Virus record (IMG/VR): IMGVR_UViG_3300002180_000069
Coordinates: 1 to 20,849 of that record
Reading direction: 5' to 3' (one strand)
Origin: a virus
DNA: 20,849 nucleotides
Within the stretch, counting starts at the first letter, position 1. Every line of letters starts with the position of its first letter. Below, one piece after another: positions 40 through 7,474 of this stretch. The notes under the pieces were generated by a model. The model did not search any database. It was not told the DNA's origin and saw nothing but the letters and a program-made list of their open reading frames with translations. Made by a program: the position numbers and the translations under genes.

Positions 40-335
40 CAGGCAATCTTCATGCGATACATATAAGGAGCTGGTATGACATTCTTGGGAGTGTCATCTG
101 TCGAGTGTCCAGGCTTACTGATCCAACGGTAAGCTCGCTTACCTTTGTTACCAGGCTTGTTCTGACTAATGAGAATCAGATTACGTACAGCAAACTCATC
201 TTCAGGATGGCGTCTAACGTGAGCTTGGAGTTTACGTAGTCTGTTCTTGGTGCGACGATCTTGAATCCGGTATGCGAGACGTTGAGCTGTACCGCGTGAA
301 CGCTTGCCGGAACCACCTTGTTTTTTACCTGTCAT
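39..335 (-). CDS. small, very basic hypothetical protein
   Basis: This 98-residue protein is rich in Lys and Arg over its first 45 residues, with a segment near residues 27-45 (RRTKNRLRKLQAHVRRHP) that looks like a basic amphipathic helix. That would suit nucleic-acid binding, although no named domain is recognised. Its ATG overlaps the stop of the HNH gene by four bases (ATGA) and has a GGGAG Shine-Dalgarno 6-7 nt upstream, so it is probably translationally coupled. It is the last complete gene of the leftward primase-helicase transcript. No signal peptide or membrane segment is seen. The reading frame looks genuine because of its coupling and ribosome site; function is unknown. Confidence 0.7.
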   Translation of the reverse strand: MTGKKQGGSGKRSRGTAQRLAYRIQDRRTKNRLRKLQAHVRRHPEDEFAVRNLILISQNKPGNKGKRAYRWISKPGHSTDDTPKNVIPAPYMYRMKIA

Positions 336-874
336 GTCGTTCTCCCATGGTTAGGATGAAAGCCGTGTTCTTTCTCAGCTGCTTTACGCGCAGCTATTGC
401 GTCTTCAAGTTTTATAAAAAGCCCTATATGCTTAGTAATATTATTTACTGTAATACGAGCTCGCCATTTCTTACAAGGCTTGGAATAAGCTATTCCACAT
501 ATCCCAGATATATTATGTTTATGTAGTTTTGCATTCCGTTGATTTTCTGAACGGGTTACACTTCGTAAATTTTTCCATCGATTGTCAGTGCGTTGACCAT
601 TTATATGATCTATTATATTAGGCCAATATCCAACTACCCAAAACCAAATAATACGTGGAACTCGGTATGTATGATTATCTATAGAGACTAATTGATAACC
701 ATTACCATTTACACTTCCAACCACTGTATTTACAAATTTGGTGTTCCACGTATTAAAAGCTTGTAAGTTTTTGAAGTCGCTTCTAGGTCGCTTGTTCCAG
801 CGTAAATTACCAGTCTCAGGATTATATGAGAATAGGCGCTTTACATACTCATGAGCTAATTCTGGTTTGGGCAT
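332..874 (-). CDS. HNH homing-type endonuclease with AP2-like C-terminal domain
   Basis: This 180-residue protein has the phage HNH_3-type core: a His-bearing strand near residues 66-80, the motif DHINGQRTDNRWKNLR at about 89-104 (Asp89, His90, Asn98, Asn102) and a following SENQRN segment. Residues 122-165 (SGICGIAYSK, then KWRARI and HIGLF) match the AP2-like DNA-binding tail that often follows such nucleases. The family makes site-specific breaks and spreads by homing; whether this copy is mobile is inference. GGAG lies about 6 nt before the ATG. It starts 9 nt after the primase-helicase stop and overlaps the next gene by 4 nt. Its base composition is more AT-rich than the primase-helicase, which fits insertion into an existing operon. 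Confidence 0.88.
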   Translation of the reverse strand: MPKPELAHEYVKRLFSYNPETGNLRWNKRPRSDFKNLQAFNTWNTKFVNTVVGSVNGNGYQLVSIDNHTYRVPRIIWFWVVGYWPNIIDHINGQRTDNRWKNLRSVTRSENQRNAKLHKHNISGICGIAYSKPCKKWRARITVNNITKHIGLFIKLEDAIAARKAAEKEHGFHPNHGRTT

Positions 875-3295: not shown

Positions 3296-3324
3296 GTTGT
3301 GTATCCTTAGCAGCGCGGAGGAAG

Positions 3325-3354
3325 AGTATAGCCCGTGGTCGGTAGAAGGGTCAA
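3325..3354 (-). promoter_or_regulatory. sigma70-like promoter for the primase-helicase gene
   Basis: Read on the - strand, TTGACC (3354-3349) is followed after 18 bases by TATACT (3330-3325). This is a good match to -35 and -10 boxes and places the start of transcription near 3318, about 23 nt before the primase-helicase ATG. It implies that host RNA polymerase reads this operon. Two direct repeats lie immediately upstream of the -35 box. Confidence 0.7.
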
Positions 3355-3371
3355 ATTAAGCATTTATTTCC

Positions 3372-3410
3372 TAGGAATTAAAGGCATAACTATAGGAATT
3401 AAAAGCCTAA
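3372..3410. repeat. two 18-bp direct repeats, 21 bp apart, upstream of the primase promoter
   Basis: TAGGAATTAAAGGCATAA (3372-3389) and TAGGAATTAAAAGCCTAA (3393-3410) match at 16 of 18 positions. The 21-bp period is two helical turns, so a bound protein would contact the same DNA face twice. Their position, about 55-90 bp upstream of the inferred start site, suits an activator or repressor site, or two iterons. No binding protein is identifiable. Confidence 0.55.
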
Positions 3411-3431
3411 TTGCGTTCTGTGTTGGTTCTC

Positions 3432-3665
3432 TGTTACAAACAGCTAATAAACGTCGAGGATTTGTAAGGCGTAACAAGAACGTAACAGATGAGACAGACG
3501 GAAAGCGCCTTAAAATCAAAGAGTTAATTATAGCTTGTTATGTTTGTTACATTGTTACGATAAATATAATAGTTTAGATAGGAAAAAAGTAAGTAGTAAA
3601 AAGAAAAAGTGAAAATACTGTATAAGAAGTAGGAAATCGCTGATCGTAATCGTAATTCGTAACGT
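3432..3665. repeat. GTAAC/GTTAC box cluster in AT-rich DNA: possible replication origin or operator array
   Basis: The gene-free stretch 3296-3670 contains repeated boxes: TGTTAC (3432-3437), CGTAACA (3470-3476 and 3481-3487), TGTTAT (3536-3541), TGTTAC (3545-3550), TGTTACG (3553-3559) and a CGTAA series near 3648-3665. The first pair and the later trio are in opposite orientations and flank an AT-rich core. Repeated short boxes plus AT-rich DNA next to a primase-helicase gene is the layout of iteron-type origins such as that of P4, but operators for a regulator would look similar. No convincing gene was found in this stretch on either strand. Confidence 0.4.
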
Positions 3666-3670
3666 AGGGT

Positions 3671-4015
3671 CTATTTGACGATTTGCTGCAAGCATTCCCT
3701 TGTTGCTTTGAACTCAAAGGTTTTGTAGTTATTAAGCTGGTGCGCGTCGGCGCAGTGTTGGAAATATGAAGCTGCATCTTTTTCAGGAACGCTGTCTAGT
3801 ATATCAGAGATTATATCGAGTTCTGTTTTTAGTGCTGTTGTACATGTGTCCCACCCCACGGTTTCTCTTTTGCACTGTTGTTTGAAGTCTGTGTGGAACT
3901 CTAAGTAGGGGGCTCGGTCTGGGTTTGGCTGTATAATGAAGACAGCACTGAGTATTATCAAGGCTGTAACTAGTCCAATAACGTCTAATTTGGTTGTTCC
4001 ATGTATGTTCTTCAT
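3671..4015 (-). CDS. hypothetical protein with an N-terminal membrane anchor
   Basis: This 114-residue protein begins with a short basic stretch and then one hydrophobic helix at about residues 12-28 (VIGLVTALIILSAVFII), followed by a soluble domain of about 85 residues. The soluble part has four cysteines (in KQQCKRETVGWDTC, HCADA and RECLQQ) that could form two disulfides if it faces the periplasm. This gives a signal-anchor layout with the C-terminus outside, which is inference. AAGGA lies about 8 nt before the ATG. It is the first gene after a terminator-like hairpin (4071-4102) and stops 376 bp before the primase-helicase start. A superinfection-exclusion or envelope role is possible, but no family is recognised. 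Confidence 0.7.
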   Translation of the reverse strand: MKNIHGTTKLDVIGLVTALIILSAVFIIQPNPDRAPYLEFHTDFKQQCKRETVGWDTCTTALKTELDIISDILDSVPEKDAASYFQHCADAHQLNNYKTFEFKATRECLQQIVK

Positions 4016-4070
4016 GATATTATCCTTTATGTTGGGTGTCCGTAGATTCGGTAGCGCGGGTAAACGGAAT

Positions 4071-4102
4071 AAAGGGCTAGACTCTCACGAGTCTGGCCCT
4101 TT
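4071..4102 (-). terminator. terminator-like hairpin after the 265-residue protein gene
   Basis: AAAGGGC-TAGACTC pairs with GAGTCTG-GCCCTTT around a 4-base loop (4085-4088). On the - strand the loop is GTGA, a GNRA tetraloop, with one C-A mismatch in a 14-bp stem, and the exit reads CCCTTTATT. It lies 16 nt beyond the stop at 4119. The U-tract is short, so termination may be partial. On the + strand the same stem is fully paired with one G-U. Confidence 0.6.
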
Positions 4103-4118
4103 ACTTTAGGAAGTGCTT

Positions 4119-4916
4119 TTAATGCACTTCAGGCTGAGTGCCGTGTTCTGAGTCATAAGTATCTATGACATCACGTCCGGCGTTGTACACAGCATCTTCA
4201 TACTGTGAGCAGAGTTCATCTGCTTGGTTCATGGTATCGATCAGCAGCTTGCGTTCTGCGGCGATATTCAACCGAGTGCGTTTGCGACGTGTGCGTACTG
4301 CACGTAGGAGCCTTGTGGACTCATACTGTTCACACTTGTCACCAATCTTGGTAAGAATGGTGATCATGTCACGGTCACTGATCTCAAACCCGCCAATCGG
4401 ATGATCCAGTATTTGCTGCAGTTCAAGTACCAGTTGTTCGCGGCTTTTATCAATCGCACCGCGTTGCAGTTCCATCCGTTCTGCTCTTTCTTTGGCATCG
4501 ATCTTCAGCAACTTCATGGCTGTATTTTCATCGATGTCTTGAGTTTCTACCAACTCTGCAACCAGAGCGTCTTCCATCAGTTGGTTAGTACCGCTACCAA
4601 TTGTATTGTTGGTGGAAGTGAAGAATTCAATGAGTTGTTCTGCATTTGGTAGTAAGTCTGGGTTGGACTCTGGTGCACAGTACGAGATGATGTCGCTGAT
4701 CTCGTTAACGCGCTTTTCAATAGACATCGGATGCCAGAAGTTTTCAGGTTCGTCGGACAGTTTTACGTCCATACTCTCAGGGTCTAGTAGTGCTGTTTTG
4801 AAGAAGCAGAAGCGTGCTGCATAGCTCCAGAGTAGCGAGACGAAGATGTTACTTTTGACATTTGCTACATGATCGACGGAAGTAAGGATTGTTTCGAGTT
4901 TCGCTATGTTTGACAT
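4119..4916 (-). CDS. hypothetical helical protein, 265 residues
   Basis: The start is set at ATG 4916 (MSNIAKLETILTS), which has GGAG 10 nt upstream; the frame stays open for 48 more codons upstream, but that stretch lacks a ribosome site and contains intergenic signals. The protein looks all-helical: a hydrophobic segment near residues 22-43, an acidic middle, a basic run at about 205-215 (RAVRTRRKRTR) and a charged C-terminal helix. The basic run could contact nucleic acid. No catalytic motif or named family is recognised. It lies in its own unit between a terminator upstream (5131-5162) and one downstream (4071-4102), with a recurring hairpin element about 150 bp ahead of its ATG. Confidence 0.75.
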   Translation of the reverse strand: MSNIAKLETILTSVDHVANVKSNIFVSLLWSYAARFCFFKTALLDPESMDVKLSDEPENFWHPMSIEKRVNEISDIISYCAPESNPDLLPNAEQLIEFFTSTNNTIGSGTNQLMEDALVAELVETQDIDENTAMKLLKIDAKERAERMELQRGAIDKSREQLVLELQQILDHPIGGFEISDRDMITILTKIGDKCEQYESTRLLRAVRTRRKRTRLNIAAERKLLIDTMNQADELCSQYEDAVYNAGRDVIDTYDSEHGTQPEVH

Positions 4917-5064
4917 AATGTTATATCTCCAATGGGATATACGGTGGACACTGAATGTATCCAATTTGGGGGGTTTTCTATCCATTTTGAGTACTAAATG
5001 CGTTAGAATGGGTGTGATTCCCCCCGCTGTCGCGCTTTTATAATCTCGTACAGAAATCAAAAAC

Positions 5065-5104
5065 GCATAAATCTATTTACTTAAAAACTTCGTCAGAAGT
5101 TTTT
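5065..5104 (-). promoter_or_regulatory. recurring hairpin plus GTAAATA element, copy C
   Basis: Reading leftward, a perfect 9-bp hairpin AAAAACTTC-TGAC-GAAGTTTTT (5104-5083) is followed by AA and GTAAATAGATTTATGC (5080-5065). From loop to GTAAATA is exactly 11 nt, as in the two other copies. The hairpin is U-rich enough to act also as a bidirectional terminator. It lies upstream of the 265-residue protein gene. Confidence 0.6.
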
Positions 5105-5130
5105 TATTCCTTTAGCTTGTTTATAAAAAG

Positions 5131-5162
5131 AAAGGGCTCGGGACTTTCGTCCGTCGCCCTTT
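5131..5162 (-). terminator. rho-independent terminator with GNRA loop and tandem G-A internal loop
   Basis: On the - strand the order is AAAGGGC, GAC, GGAC, loop GAAA, GTCC, CGA, GCCCTTT, then CTTTTTAT. The outer stem is 7 bp and the inner stem 4 bp; they are separated by a 3x3 internal loop (GAC opposite CGA) that can form two sheared G-A pairs. The U-rich exit supports termination of the leftward small-gene transcript. Its outer stem is identical in sequence to that of the 4071-4102 hairpin. Confidence 0.75.
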
Positions 5163-5316
5163 AACGCTACACAGGAGAGTGTATTCAACTTAATTCGTAA
5201 GACTGCCACTAATCAGGCGAGTGCCACCCCGCAGCATTCCCAGCTCTGCGTTTCTTCGATACTTGTTCTGAGTGCACAGTGGCTAAGCACCCCGTCGCCT
5301 TGCGGCTCGGGGGTGC
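5131..5316 (-). ncRNA. candidate structured RNA or structured 3' UTR
   Basis: This 186-nt gene-free stretch lies downstream of the last small membrane gene. It opens, on the - strand, with GCACCCC-CGA-GCC-loop GCAA-GGC-GAC-GGGGTGC (5316-5287) and closes with the terminator hairpin at 5162-5131. Both hairpins have a GNRA loop and the same CGA/GAC internal loop, though the stem sequences differ. Between them, AGTGGC (5278-5283) can pair with GCCACT (5205-5210), enclosing a CGCAG/CTGCG stem (5230-5250). The region is GC-richer than its surroundings. It may be a stable phage RNA or simply a protective 3' UTR; no known RNA family was recognised. Confidence 0.4.
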
Positions 5317-5323
5317 AGAGATA

Positions 5324-5593
5324 TTAGATCACCTTCTTTTGTTTTTTGTTGTACCGCCACTTTGTCAAGAGCAGTAGGAGTGAGAAGAACAGGCCAGTCC
5401 AGGTAGTCATGGCGGTGACCAAGTTGGTAGGAACTTTAACGATCAGCGCAATGCATAGAGCAACAACTGTAGCGTCAATGTAAGCTTTGTACTTTACCAG
5501 TGTCACAATGGGTACAAGTTGTGCAATTACATAATACAGTCCAAGCGCTAAACCGAAACCGAGTCCCAAGCTGCTGTTAAAGAACTCAGTCAT
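5324..5593 (-). CDS. small three-helix membrane protein, holin-like
   Basis: The start is ATG 5593 (MTEFFNSSLGLG), with a strong GGAGG 8 nt upstream; longer in-frame starts lie inside the previous gene. The 89-residue product has about three hydrophobic segments (residues 8-30, 35-56 and 62-76) and a very basic C-terminus (KWRYNKKQKKVI). Size, three helices and a charged tail match class I holins, which form the membrane lesion that releases an endolysin. However, no endolysin is in this window, and the gene lies in an early-looking leftward cluster, so holin is only a suggestion. It overlaps the preceding 52-residue membrane gene by 8 nt and is probably co-translated with it. Confidence 0.7.
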   Translation of the reverse strand: MTEFFNSSLGLGFGLALGLYYVIAQLVPIVTLVKYKAYIDATVVALCIALIVKVPTNLVTAMTTWTGLFFSLLLLLTKWRYNKKQKKVI

Positions 5594-5744
5594 CTTTTTT
5601 ATCCTCCATGGTTGAGTAAGCCCAGAGGCCACCGGCAACGATTGCTGCGATACCTGCGGCGTAGACAATGACATTGAATGATGCAGATACGATGGGAGCT
5701 GCTACTGCACCGGCGAGGATGTACATCCAAGGCTTCTGTTTCAT
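5586..5744 (-). CDS. 52-residue membrane protein
   Basis: The start is ATG 5744 (MKQKPWMYILAG), whose A-T-G-A overlaps the stop of the 25-residue peptide gene; GGGAG lies about 10 nt upstream. The product has two adjacent small-residue-rich hydrophobic stretches, about residues 6-22 and 24-43, and a charged tail EDKKDD. This could be one long helix or a helical hairpin with both ends in the cytoplasm. The Gly/Ala pattern favours close helix packing, as in small oligomeric phage membrane proteins. A longer frame with a GTG start at 5825 exists but would read the preceding two genes out of frame, so it was rejected. No family is recognised. Confidence 0.65.
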   Translation of the reverse strand: MKQKPWMYILAGAVAAPIVSASFNVIVYAAGIAAIVAGGLWAYSTMEDKKDD

Positions 5745-5818
5745 AAGAGGGTTACTCCCATAATGAATCCAACACCATAAGCGAGAGCTGTTACCAATGT
5801 TAGAGTAAGCTTTTTCAT
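5741..5818 (-). CDS. 25-residue single-helix membrane peptide
   Basis: This gene is short enough to escape normal ORF calling. ATG 5818 overlaps the previous stop as TAATG, and its TGA overlaps the next ATG as ATGA. An AGGTGG Shine-Dalgarno lies about 6 nt upstream. The peptide starts MKKLTLTLVTALAYG and ends GVTLL: two lysines followed by about 21 uninterrupted hydrophobic residues, so a single transmembrane helix with the N-terminus inside is predicted. Coupling on both sides and the ribosome site argue for real translation. It could be an antiholin-like modulator, a membrane toxin-like peptide, or a subunit of a complex with its membrane neighbours; nothing in the sequence decides. Confidence 0.6.
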   Translation of the reverse strand: MKKLTLTLVTALAYGVGFIMGVTLL

Positions 5819-5997
5819 TATCCACCTCGTACTTTGTCAGCTGCTGCCTGGAGCTTGTCAGAAACGCTTTTGCGCATCTTGGAGCGTAGTGATGGGGCTT
5901 TTTCTTTCATAGTGGCCTGGGCCTTTTGGATGGTCTTGGCGATCTTAGGTGTATGCTCTAGGCTGATGCTGATTGGGTTGCGTAGAGTGATGTGCAT
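5818..5997 (-). CDS. 59-residue basic helical protein
   Basis: The start is ATG 5997 (MHITLRNPIS), with CAGGAGA 7-8 nt upstream; a longer in-frame start has no ribosome site. The product is basic and helical from about residue 15 onward, with a Lys/Ser/Ala-rich pattern (KIAKTIQKAQATMKEK and SLRSKMRKSVSDKL) that forms an amphipathic helix and ends in KVRGG. It has no hydrophobic segment. It is the first gene of a four-gene coupled cluster that continues with three membrane proteins (TAATG junction at 5818-5820). A nucleic-acid-binding or membrane-surface role is conceivable. No family is recognised. Confidence 0.65.
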   Translation of the reverse strand: MHITLRNPISISLEHTPKIAKTIQKAQATMKEKAPSLRSKMRKSVSDKLQAAADKVRGG

Positions 5998-6030
5998 GGT
6001 GTATCTCCTGTGTTGTTTATAGTAATGAAG

Positions 6031-6072
6031 CACACATGTATTTACCCCTGGCCTACGTCAGTAGGACAGAGG
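6031..6072 (-). promoter_or_regulatory. recurring hairpin plus GTAAATA element, copy B
   Basis: Reading leftward, CCTCTG-T-CCTAC, loop TGAC (6060-6057), GTAGG-C-CAGGGG is followed by TAAATACATGTGTG; the G of GTAAATA is the last stem base (6045). From loop to GTAAATA is exactly 11 nt. The one odd pair in the outer stem is a G-U on the - strand but an A-C on the + strand, which favours the - strand as the working strand. It lies 34 nt ahead of the 59-residue protein start, in the gap between two small genes. Confidence 0.6.
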
Positions 6073-6079
6073 TAGTTAG

Positions 6080-6292
6080 TCATGTGAACATCCACTCAGC
6101 AGCTGATTCAGCAGTAGGCTCATCTATGGTGGGTGTGATCTCTACTGATTCAAATCCGCCTATGTATGGTACGAGTGCCATATGTTTGAGGGCTGTGGCT
6201 TCATCATAGTTAGACAGTACTACTCGGTGTTGCCTGTTGTGGTGTGAGTGTATGGCGACTGCATAGTTTGGTGGTGTTAGGGTAATGCTCAT
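6080..6292 (-). CDS. 70-residue hypothetical protein
   Basis: The ATG has CAGGAGA about 7 nt upstream in a leader (ACAACACAGGAGAACATC) nearly identical to that of the 59-residue gene, which supports this start. The product is mildly acidic, with a central segment HHNRQHRVVLSNYDEATALKHM and a C-terminal acidic tail. The N-terminus could form beta strands (SITLTPPNYAVAIHSH). It has no membrane segment, cysteine motif or recognised domain. It lies 17 nt after the 69-residue gene, almost certainly on the same transcript, and is followed by hairpin element B. Confidence 0.65.
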   Translation of the reverse strand: MSITLTPPNYAVAIHSHHNRQHRVVLSNYDEATALKHMALVPYIGGFESVEITPTIDEPTAESAAEWMFT

Positions 6293-6309
6293 GATGTTCT
6301 CCTGTGTTG

Positions 6310-6519
6310 TTATACCACTATAGTCTTGTGTCCAGCCATGGCTGCTCTACGTGCATTGGCTAGGCGTTGCCTGTAGGGGAGTGGTTGCTCAGTACTATTA
6401 GTTGGTGCATTGAGCTTGGATGTAGCATCAGCGAGCTTGGCTCTGAGGTTAGCTACTTGTTGGGTCAGTGCTTTGTGCTCTCTTATAAGCTCAGGTTTAG
6501 TTGTTTTGGAATAGTTCAT
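6310..6519 (-). CDS. 69-residue coiled-coil hypothetical protein
   Basis: The start is ATG 6519 (MNYSKTTKPEL), with CAGGAG 7-8 nt upstream; the in-frame extension beyond it lies in the leader. Residues 10-40 (LIREHKALTQQVANLRAKL) have leucines and hydrophobics at heptad spacing, so a short dimeric coiled coil is likely. The C-terminal part is basic (YRQRLANARRAAMAGHK). This layout suits a small DNA-associated or adaptor protein. It is the first gene of the leftward transcript that leaves the divergent hub and lies just downstream of hairpin element A and a sigma70-like promoter. No family is recognised. Confidence 0.65.
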   Translation of the reverse strand: MNYSKTTKPELIREHKALTQQVANLRAKLADATSKLNAPTNSTEQPLPYRQRLANARRAAMAGHKTIVV

Positions 6520-6545
6520 GGTGTTCTCCTGTGGGGGGTGTAGGT

Positions 6546-6584
6546 ACACACATCTATTTACTGCGGAATTGCATCAGCAATTTC
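6546..6584 (-). promoter_or_regulatory. recurring hairpin plus GTAAATA element, copy A
   Basis: Reading leftward, AATTGC, loop TGAT (6576-6573), GCAATT is followed by CCGCA and GTAAATAGATGTGTGT (6561-6546). The distance from loop to GTAAATA is 11 nt, as in copies B and C, although the stem sequences are unrelated. It lies about 27 nt ahead of the 69-residue protein start. Confidence 0.6.
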
Positions 6585-6754
6585 GTGAGACTGGTAGGGG
6601 GGTGGGGCCCCTTATGTTGGAAGAACACCGAAGTCGAATCCGAAGTGGGGTGGGCCTGTGGAGAGAAGGGTATAGGGTACCCCACTCGCTATCCCCCACT
6701 ATTTTTTATAAAATCACTATATACGTTTTGTAAAATTTATGGCATACTTTTTAC
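6585..6754. other. G-rich divergent intergenic hub between leftward and rightward blocks
   Basis: No gene is supported here. The stretch has G runs and perfect palindromes GGGGCCCC (6604-6611) and GGGTACCC (6675-6682). AGTGGGG (6644-6650) can pair with CCCCACT (6694-6700), followed on the + strand by a run of six T. An AT-rich segment follows (6701-6750). It separates divergent transcription units and lies just before the terminase region, a position where cos or pac sites are often found, but nothing proves one. Confidence 0.4.
6705..6734 (-). promoter_or_regulatory. sigma70-like promoter driving the leftward small genes
   Basis: On the - strand TTTACA (6734-6729) is followed after 18 bases by TATAAA (6710-6705), or after 17 by TTATAA. 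The start of transcription would fall near 6698. The leader would then run through the G-rich hub and element A to the 69-residue gene. The AT-rich context makes a chance match possible. Confidence 0.45.
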
Positions 6755-7474
6755 ATGAGTATTAAAAAATCTTTTAGTGCAATGCACCAACGGTGTAAAA
6801 ATCCTAATAACCCTAATTATTATAGATATGGGGGAGTGGGGATTACTGTTTGTGAACGGTGGGATTCTTTCGAAGCTTTTTGTGAAGATATGGCCCCTCG
6901 TCCTATAGGGATGTCTTTAGATAGGATTGATTCTCTTGGAGATTACACCCCTGAGAATTGTAGATGGGCAACTCCATTAGAACAGATGCAAAATCGCGTG
7001 GATTCTATATATTGTGAACATAGAGGGGAAAGTAAAACTCTTTCTGAATGGTGTAACGAGCTTAAACTTAACTATAGTTTTGTTTATAGGCACCTCAAAG
7101 CGGGAAAGAACATCGAGGAAATCATGACATTAAAATTTAATGATACATACCGTTCTAAATGGGGAGCTATAGAAATTAATGGAGTAACTAGAAAATTAAA
7201 AGAGTGGTGCGTAGAATATAGAAAGCCTTACCCAACTGTCTACGCTCGAATTCGCCGGGGAATTGATCCACTAACAGCACTAACCCAAGATAATGTTCAC
7301 ACAGGGCGTACAAAATATAAAAAATTTGATTCTAAATACGCAGCGATAAAAATCCGTGGGAGAACACAGTCTCTTTCTGATTGGTGTAGAGAGTATGGTA
7401 TTCTCTACCAAACAGCATACTATGCTCTGTTTATAAAAGGGGTCGCCCCTTGGAAAGTCTTTCCGCGTGTTTGA
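6755..7474 (+). CDS. HNH endonuclease with three C-terminal HTH-like repeats
   Basis: This 239-residue protein has an HNH-type core in residues 1-82: AMHQRCKNPNNPNYYRYGG, GITVCERW, MSLDRIDSLGDYTPENCRWAT and the MQNR tail, as in common phage homing-type nucleases. Three related modules follow, at about 90-130, 138-177 and 197-236, each with hydrophobic start, Thr-x-x-Leu, EWC or DWC, then Y-x-x-(V/A)Y and a Gly turn; they are probably helix-turn-helix DNA-recognition repeats. Its AT-rich codons contrast with the terminase genes, indicating separate acquisition. No Shine-Dalgarno precedes the ATG, and family members often have a few more N-terminal residues, so the start may be trimmed or expression weak. 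Nucleases beside terminases sometimes assist packaging, but homing is the simpler reading. Confidence 0.85.
   Translation: MSIKKSFSAMHQRCKNPNNPNYYRYGGVGITVCERWDSFEAFCEDMAPRPIGMSLDRIDSLGDYTPENCRWATPLEQMQNRVDSIYCEHRGESKTLSEWCNELKLNYSFVYRHLKAGKNIEEIMTLKFNDTYRSKWGAIEINGVTRKLKEWCVEYRKPYPTVYARIRRGIDPLTALTQDNVHTGRTKYKKFDSKYAAIKIRGRTQSLSDWCREYGILYQTAYYALFIKGVAPWKVFPRV

Follow-up and report, generated by a model that had tools for sequence, protein, structure and literature searches.

Hairpin Elements with a Fixed Downstream Motif Ahead of Early Genes in a KPP25-Like Podovirus: Candidate DNA Hairpin Promoters

Introduction

Three small hairpins, each followed at the same distance by the same motif, are located ahead of leftward genes in the virus fragment IMGVR_UViG_3300002180_000069 (20,849 bases; this whole stretch is called the window in the following). 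What are these elements, termed A, B and C here, and are they read as DNA or as RNA? To our knowledge, hairpin (cruciform) promoters of double-stranded DNA phages have been reported from N4 and related phages, together with a giant injected polymerase. Our analysis indicates that a structure-conserved early-gene element very probably exists in the phage group of the window. As the best single reading we propose, tentatively and somewhat short of an even chance, that the elements are early promoters recognized as DNA hairpins of the template strand, by a polymerase which is not a recognizable virion RNA polymerase. This reading is ranked ahead of an element acting in the RNA leader.

The same phage is also represented by a 70,109-base record, IMGVR_UViG_3300027852_000002 (G001), with 100% identical primase and terminase genes. 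The ends of this record share approximately 127 bases of the window and thus the genome assembles as a circle. The rightward genes are late genes (terminase, portal, capsid); leftward, small genes are followed by a large primase-like gene. RIIA- and RIIB-like proteins are also encoded. The nearest named phages are the Pseudomonas phages KPP25, phiR18, YMC17/07/R4900a and CRPAP1904, with 41-42% identity of the portal and about 34% identity of the primase. Relatives were collected via TerL, portal and primase, with the best 80 matches listed for TerL and for the portal. They are KPP25-like podoviruses, mostly uncultivated.

Three Elements with a Common Architecture

All three elements are located on the minus strand. 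Element A (5066..5104) consists of a 9-bp stem (5104-5096/5091-5083), the loop TGAC (5095-5092) and, after 11 nucleotides (nt), the motif GTAAATAGATTTATG (5080-5066). Element B (6031..6065) has a 5-bp stem (6065-6061/6056-6052), again the loop TGAC (6060-6057) and, 11 nt further on, the motif GTAAATACATGTGTG (6045-6031). In element C (6547..6582), which precedes the first leftward gene, a 6-bp stem (6582-6577/6572-6567) encloses the loop TGAT (6576-6573) and the motif GTAAATAGATGTGTG (6561-6547) follows after 11 nt. The stems are perfectly paired and unlike in sequence, and each of the three loops is closed by a C-G pair. Reading back the coordinates confirmed the positions, the orientation, the stems, the TGAY loops and the 11-nt spacing claimed in the original prediction, which had been made from the sequence of the window. 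This prediction had also described shared letters after GTAAATA. Such sharing exists and extends further than stated: a block of about 15 nt, GTAAATAsATkTrTG, is present in all three elements with 12 of 15 positions identical.

The exact string TGAY-N11-GTAAATA was found three times in the window and, likewise, three times in the whole of G001, on one strand only. The further copies in the genome that had been suggested as a check did not appear. The reversed pattern, used as a control, gave no match in G001. In 300 windows simulated with a Markov model the string occurred 0.037 times per window irrespective of a stem, and in 0 of the 300 together with a stem of at least 5 bp. When up to two mismatches were allowed, 18 matches were obtained in the window versus 11 expected; consequently, only the exact copies stand out. 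Outside the window phage, the exact string was found among 293 loci as single matches only, in L049, L053 and L220.

The Architecture in Related Phages

Since the exact motif does not mark the relatives, homology was sought at the level of the architecture. The pair scan employed for this contained no letters of the window. Two hairpins of a locus counted as a pair if their loops agreed, with one mismatch tolerated, their stems differed and identical letters followed both at equal offsets. The scan covered 146 loci (L100-L245) and was restricted to hairpins that precede a start codon by 22-120 nt; one shuffle served as control. Twelve pairs from 8 loci shared at least 8 letters versus none in the shuffle. 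Shorter sharing was less distinctive, with 5 pairs versus 1 shuffled for 7 letters and 14 versus 7 for 6 letters; the best pair of the window itself has 7 common letters. When nearly all loci then collected were scanned less strictly, 20 distinct pairs with at least 8 letters were obtained from 17 loci versus none in one shuffle, a part of them being chance-like matches in coding sequence (e.g., L036, L181 and L151). Shuffles were used because two other controls proved unsound, namely reversed sequence (59 raw matches versus 59 reversed) and an "upstream" count, which repeats the test through strand symmetry.

The design recurs in the relatives with loops and motifs of their own. Three copies in L119/L188 have the loop GTT, 8 nt and GCGAATCG, while two copies each in L185 and L187 have the loop TTC, 8 nt and GCCCTTTG. 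In L139 the loop TTC is followed after 10 nt by GTCTCTC (2 copies). L219 carries the same loops as the window, TGAC/TGAT, followed by 8 nt and GCGTACCTC (2 copies). The largest set was found in L241, where 8 copies with the loops ATA, GTA or TGTA, 9 nt and GGCTAG or GGCAAG each precede their own start codon. Further copies are those of L102 (loops CTC/TTC, 2 copies), L193 (TTAC, 2 copies), L227 (TTGC, 2 copies with a weak motif), L234 (TTTC, 3 copies) and L203 (ATTA/AATA, 2 copies). In total, a phage has 2 to 8 copies, which point in the direction of the early/replication genes and mostly lie 40-85 nt before the start codon. The exact motif, then, was no marker of relatives, and the architecture was present in them. 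Likewise, the 11-nt spacing did not recur in homologues, which use 8-10 nt, but the spacing is constant within each phage. The original proposal that structure rather than stem sequence is conserved is supported by these relatives.

Among the cultured phages, KPP25, phiR18 and CRPAP1904 (Kochitakasuvirus and kin) each possess a pair of 9-bp hairpins, different in their stems and alike in the loop GGA. In KPP25 and phiR18, where the distance was measured, they lie 48-50 nt ahead of two early genes. These leaders resemble the window in hairpins with a common loop and unlike stems, the early-gene position and an upstream CTTCGG box, and differ from it in the strand of the loop and in the downstream motif (see below). 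A CsrA/RsmA-type reading of the GGA loops, considered for KPP25 only, does not fit the other loops and was rejected. Because the relatives carry the same architecture with their own loops, spacings and motifs, the structure-dependent early-gene element is regarded as a feature of the group, albeit not of every member.

Two additional hairpin classes were observed. In L241 two hairpins (6380 and 6550) have 10-bp stems and the loop TACG, followed by AACTTATG. L064, a more distant TerL relative, contains three hairpins of 9-11 bp with the loop ATCC ahead of genes (minus strand, 14813, 15064 and 15264), each followed by a conserved TATAAAT-AAGGAGT stretch.

Box-Anchored Leaders

In many relatives the early region starts with a box which in the window reads CTTCGGATTCG (6635..6645, minus strand). 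This box is not part of the element and served as an anchor. Its letters, CTTCGG(A)TTCG, were set by the search pattern, and it is usually preceded by CCCCA. A total of 43 distinct box-anchored leaders of first genes was obtained, including those of the window and KPP25; at least one of them (L202) is probably spurious. A hairpin, defined as a stem of at least 5 bp with a loop of 3-5 nt, was present in 28 of the 43 leaders, whereas shuffling these leaders 200 times led to an expectation of 10.5. For stems of at least 7 bp the count was 15 versus 0.9 expected. Judged by the loop of the best hairpin, 9 leaders showed G-N(N)-A on the template strand, with 0.5 expected; the sense strand had this form in 3 leaders, with 0.4 expected. 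The binomial probability of 9 in 28 at 1/16 is 3e-5, with the qualification that L185, L187, L214 and other related phages do not represent independent cases. When non-coding hairpins of at least 7 bp before early-strand starts were counted more widely, 10 of 50 had this loop form on the template strand and 3 on the sense strand, which points the same way and is weak by itself.

A short palindrome follows about 31-35 nt after the start of the box in 22 of 45 leaders. It differs between phages: AAGAATTCTT in KPP25, AAGCATGCTT, GGAGTCC or GAGTCTC elsewhere, and, slightly further on, GGGGCCCC at 6604-6611 in the window. Box and palindrome together (6604-6645, minus strand) read like a terminase site with a cohesive-end cut. 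If so, the end of the genome would lie about 25 nt ahead of element C.

Pairing, Loops and Folding Energies

The base pairs of the hairpins allow DNA and RNA to be compared. In 35 elements from 13 phages the continuous helices contain 275 Watson-Crick pairs and 1 G-U pair. In contrast, G-U pairs make up 83 of the 1117 pairs in 134 terminator-like hairpins from these loci. Since Watson-Crick pairs beside the loop were demanded during discovery, the fair comparison begins beyond pair five. There, about 1 in 102 pairs is G-U (p = 0.007); when all slot positions past pair five are counted, broken helices included, there are 116 Watson-Crick, 4 G-U and 15 mismatched positions.

On the template strand the loops, each with its closing C-G pair, read GTCA in A and B and ATCA in C. 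DNA folding gave -6.6, -2.7 and -4.2 kcal/mol for the template hairpins of A, B and C and -6.2, -2.3 and -4.1 kcal/mol for the sense strand. The corresponding values for sense-strand RNA are -6.5, -4.7 and -4.4 kcal/mol. With such a small difference between the DNA strands and good folding of the RNA, energy alone does not decide. The scarce G-U pairs and the template-strand bias of G-N(N)-A loops favour DNA over RNA.

Genes, Terminators and Host Promoters around the Elements

All three elements are placed ahead of leftward genes as predicted. The G of the motif is 42 nt from the ATG of a 69-amino-acid (aa) open reading frame (ORF) behind C (6310..6519) and 48 nt from that of a 59-aa ORF behind B (5818..5997); in both cases AGGAG precedes the ATG. 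Element A lies farther away, 164 nt from the likely start codon at 4916 of a 265-aa ORF (4119..4916), whose ATG is preceded by GGAG. This ORF, scanned in its TTG-start form, had no PHROG or Pfam match. All three ORFs are on the minus strand.

A terminator-like hairpin with a T-run (5125..5162, minus strand) ends about 20 nt ahead of A. It is absent from the list of our terminator scan because its loop exceeds the loop limit of the scan. Given this hairpin, a new start is probably required for the gene behind A. No sigma-70 site was listed on that strand between the two. At the elements themselves, which share with host sigma-70 promoters the position ahead of genes, no listed site (-35/-10 hexamers, 16-18 nt apart) overlaps any of the three. 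An Rfam scan of window positions 3300-7000 returned, up to an expect value (E) of 5, CC2171 as sole match (E 1.5, 17 bits versus a cut-off of 75).

The non-coding stretch 5105-5335 (minus strand) contains two hairpins with a common 3x3 internal loop (CGA/GAC) and GNRA-type end loops. Its fold has a z-score of -1.9, 8 of 200 shuffles were equally good, and no Rfam match above the gathering score was obtained.

Search for a Cognate Polymerase

G001 and related records were searched for a polymerase that might read the elements. Neither an N4-type nor a T7-type enzyme was found in G001. The core domain of the N4 virion RNA polymerase (vRNAP), PF21867, was absent from G001 and 48 relatives and present in N4, divergence beyond detection being possible. 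The T7-type domain PF00940 was not found in G001 either and was positive only in N4 and in one of 48 relatives (G036); phrog_414 gave no match in G001 and agreed with PF00940 on its 50 records. Because the records of many relatives are fragments, absence of a polymerase is weak evidence for single records. In G036, the contig of L218/L011, an ORF at about 28669-29685 encodes a T7-like single-subunit RNA polymerase (563 aa).

The gene for a giant virion protein of 2430 aa (L258:3001-10290 of G001), which occupies the place of the polymerase gene in N4, was analyzed separately; the N-terminal part of its product is similar to the N-terminus of the N4 vRNAP. The vRNAP family profile phrog_2206 matched it at N-terminal positions only (E 9.5e-6), as it did in 9 of 50 relatives. 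Alignment with single N4 pieces by hhalign gave at most 1.8% probability, except for the N-terminal part with 9.5%, and Pfam and PDB sequence searches yielded nothing that counts. Weak thermonuclease-like and metalloprotease-like stretches were seen with PHROG (E 2.6e-5 and 4.4e-4). A search for polymerase motifs was uninformative: it produced scattered single matches, among them one TxxGR-like match at residue 886, and failed to detect most of the motifs even in N4.

An AlphaFold model of the C-terminal 850 residues, based on 14 sequences, is nearly all helical with a mean predicted local distance difference test score of 71 and a predicted template modelling (TM) score of 0.68; residues ~560-1580 were covered by profiles only. 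The best solved structures retrieved by Foldseek were the phiM1 ejectosome (E 5.8e-5) and the T7 core protein (E 2.5e-3); TM-scores were low for both. In a viral structure library a KPP25 structural protein came first, and many internal virion proteins were among the best 50 matches listed. By these structural matches the C-terminal part of the giant protein resembles an ejection protein; in the model it looks like one of the T7 gp16 type.

Comparison with N4 Promoters

The literature on the vRNAP-read promoters P1-P3 of N4 and other Schitoviridae (PMC4496689, PMC3715699) describes features that are also seen here, namely three copies preceding early genes and inverted repeats with unlike stems. 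According to PMC4496689, extrusion in N4 depends on the closing pair and on a template loop with G at its 5' end and A at its 3' end. In both systems a G stands at a fixed distance from the loop, here as the first letter of the shared motif, and the loop is closed by C-G; the template loop is G-N-A in N4 and G-N-N-A in two of the three elements here. Furthermore, P2 of N4 follows a terminator-like hairpin as element A does, and the genome plan agrees: terminase and early genes are divergent and the gene for the giant virion protein is located at the convergent point. In the N4 record we located the promoters; their stems have 5-7 bp, and the G follows the loop after 9 nt. In contrast, the spacing here is 11 nt, a conserved 15-nt block stands behind the hairpin and no virion RNA polymerase domain was found. 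The 3-nt loop and 5-7-bp stem of the N4 type are likewise replaced by 4-nt loops in all three elements and stems of 9, 5 and 6 bp. Because of loop size and cognate polymerase the elements were not filed as N4 promoters despite their N4-like layout. Accordingly, the analogy with N4 drawn at the outset is closer than had been noted with respect to place, spacing logic and type of template loop, and does not extend to the polymerase.

The literature searched, which covered few subscription papers, contained no hairpin promoter outside N4-like phages. Nor did it present the leaders of KPP25, phiR18 and CRPAP1904 as promoters; a term search in the CRPAP1904 and phiR18 papers did not find the word "promoter".

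Interpretation

As DNA hairpin promoters the elements could function as follows. In supercoiled incoming DNA the inverted repeat would extrude, so that a small hairpin forms on the template strand, its loop being stable and in most cases G-N(N)-A. Loop and stem may be bound by a polymerase or by a factor recruiting one, the sequence of the stem mattering little. Transcription would begin at a constant distance of 11 nt from the loop, on the G of GTAAATA or close to it, and leaders of about 42-48 nt would result behind C and B. Direct observations that support this reading are the repeated architecture, its presence in relatives, the place before early genes, the scarcity of G-U pairs and the loop bias. 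The terminator-like hairpin shortly before A, with no sigma-70 site listed between it and the gene, and the similar layout of the N4 promoters also count in its favour.

Several other observations weigh against it. No N4-type or T7-type RNA polymerase domain was detected in the window phage, and its giant protein has the ejection-protein likeness described above. A sigma-70-like site (9/12) is located upstream of C at 6745-6716. Folding of sense-strand RNA is as good as that of DNA or better. Loops other than G-N(N)-A were found in 16 of the 43 leaders, including that of element C, and a further 15 have no such hairpin. In KPP25 it is the sense strand that has G-N-A loops, and a downstream motif common to its hairpins was not seen. 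The copies of L234 and L203 are also terminator-like with T-rich tails. Finally, L101, the nearest relative by portal (55%) among the matches listed, has no repeated element, and its one 7-bp hairpin is 172 nt away from a start codon.

The main alternative, somewhat less probable, is that the host RNA polymerase starts upstream and that the hairpin and motif at the 5' end of early cistrons are bound by a phage or host protein or stabilize or process the message. The elements sit in leaders ahead of ribosome-binding sites, the sense-strand RNA hairpins fold well, and the sigma-70-like site upstream of C keeps this explanation alive. Ejection proteins of the T7 type are known from phages that start transcription with the host polymerase, and the resemblance of the giant protein to such proteins fits as well. 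However, G-U pairs are nearly absent, the loop bias is on the strand that is not present in RNA, and a terminator-like hairpin stands directly upstream of A.

A site in duplex DNA is unlikely. Here, a phage regulator acting with the host RNA polymerase would contact CTGAYG and GTAAATA, and the inverted repeats would be secondary. The fixed spacing of two short motifs suits a duplex-binding protein, and L219 has the same loop letters with another motif, but perfect and unlike stems in all three copies and in the relatives would not be needed. Terminators or RNA-processing sites between cistrons are very unlikely. Several copies in relatives directly follow a stop codon, and the T-rich ends in L234 and L203 would agree with termination; on the other hand, no gene of the same strand lies close ahead of C or of the first copies in relatives, B and C lack a T-run behind the stem, and none of the three is in the list of our scan for intrinsic terminators. 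Chance or recent local duplication, to which only the presence of just three copies within 1.5 kb lends itself, is hardly credible in view of the simulated windows and the parallel families in relatives, and duplication does not explain elements whose stems share no sequence.

Extending DNA hairpin promoters to the relatives calls for somewhat more caution. Possibly, a non-N4 podovirus group uses early promoters of this kind, with a loop, a spacing and a start motif that are particular to each phage, the template strand being read by the host RNA polymerase with a factor or by a highly divergent polymerase. If true, hairpin promoters would not be tied to a giant virion RNA polymerase and structure-read promoters would be a more general phenomenon. 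The many phages, each pairing a loop with a spacing and a motif, would also offer natural variants for studying hairpin recognition. If the elements act in RNA, they would be an early leader element of a kind described nowhere in the part of the literature searched. In both cases the elements indicate where early transcription units lie in phages without such annotation, cultured Pseudomonas phages included.

Two minor observations concern HNH genes. The window contains an HNH endonuclease gene at 332-874 (minus strand, PHROG 99). Between element C and the small terminase gene, an ORF at 6755-7474 (plus strand) includes DNA (~6794-6975) that weakly resembles HNH genes of Staphylococcus phages.

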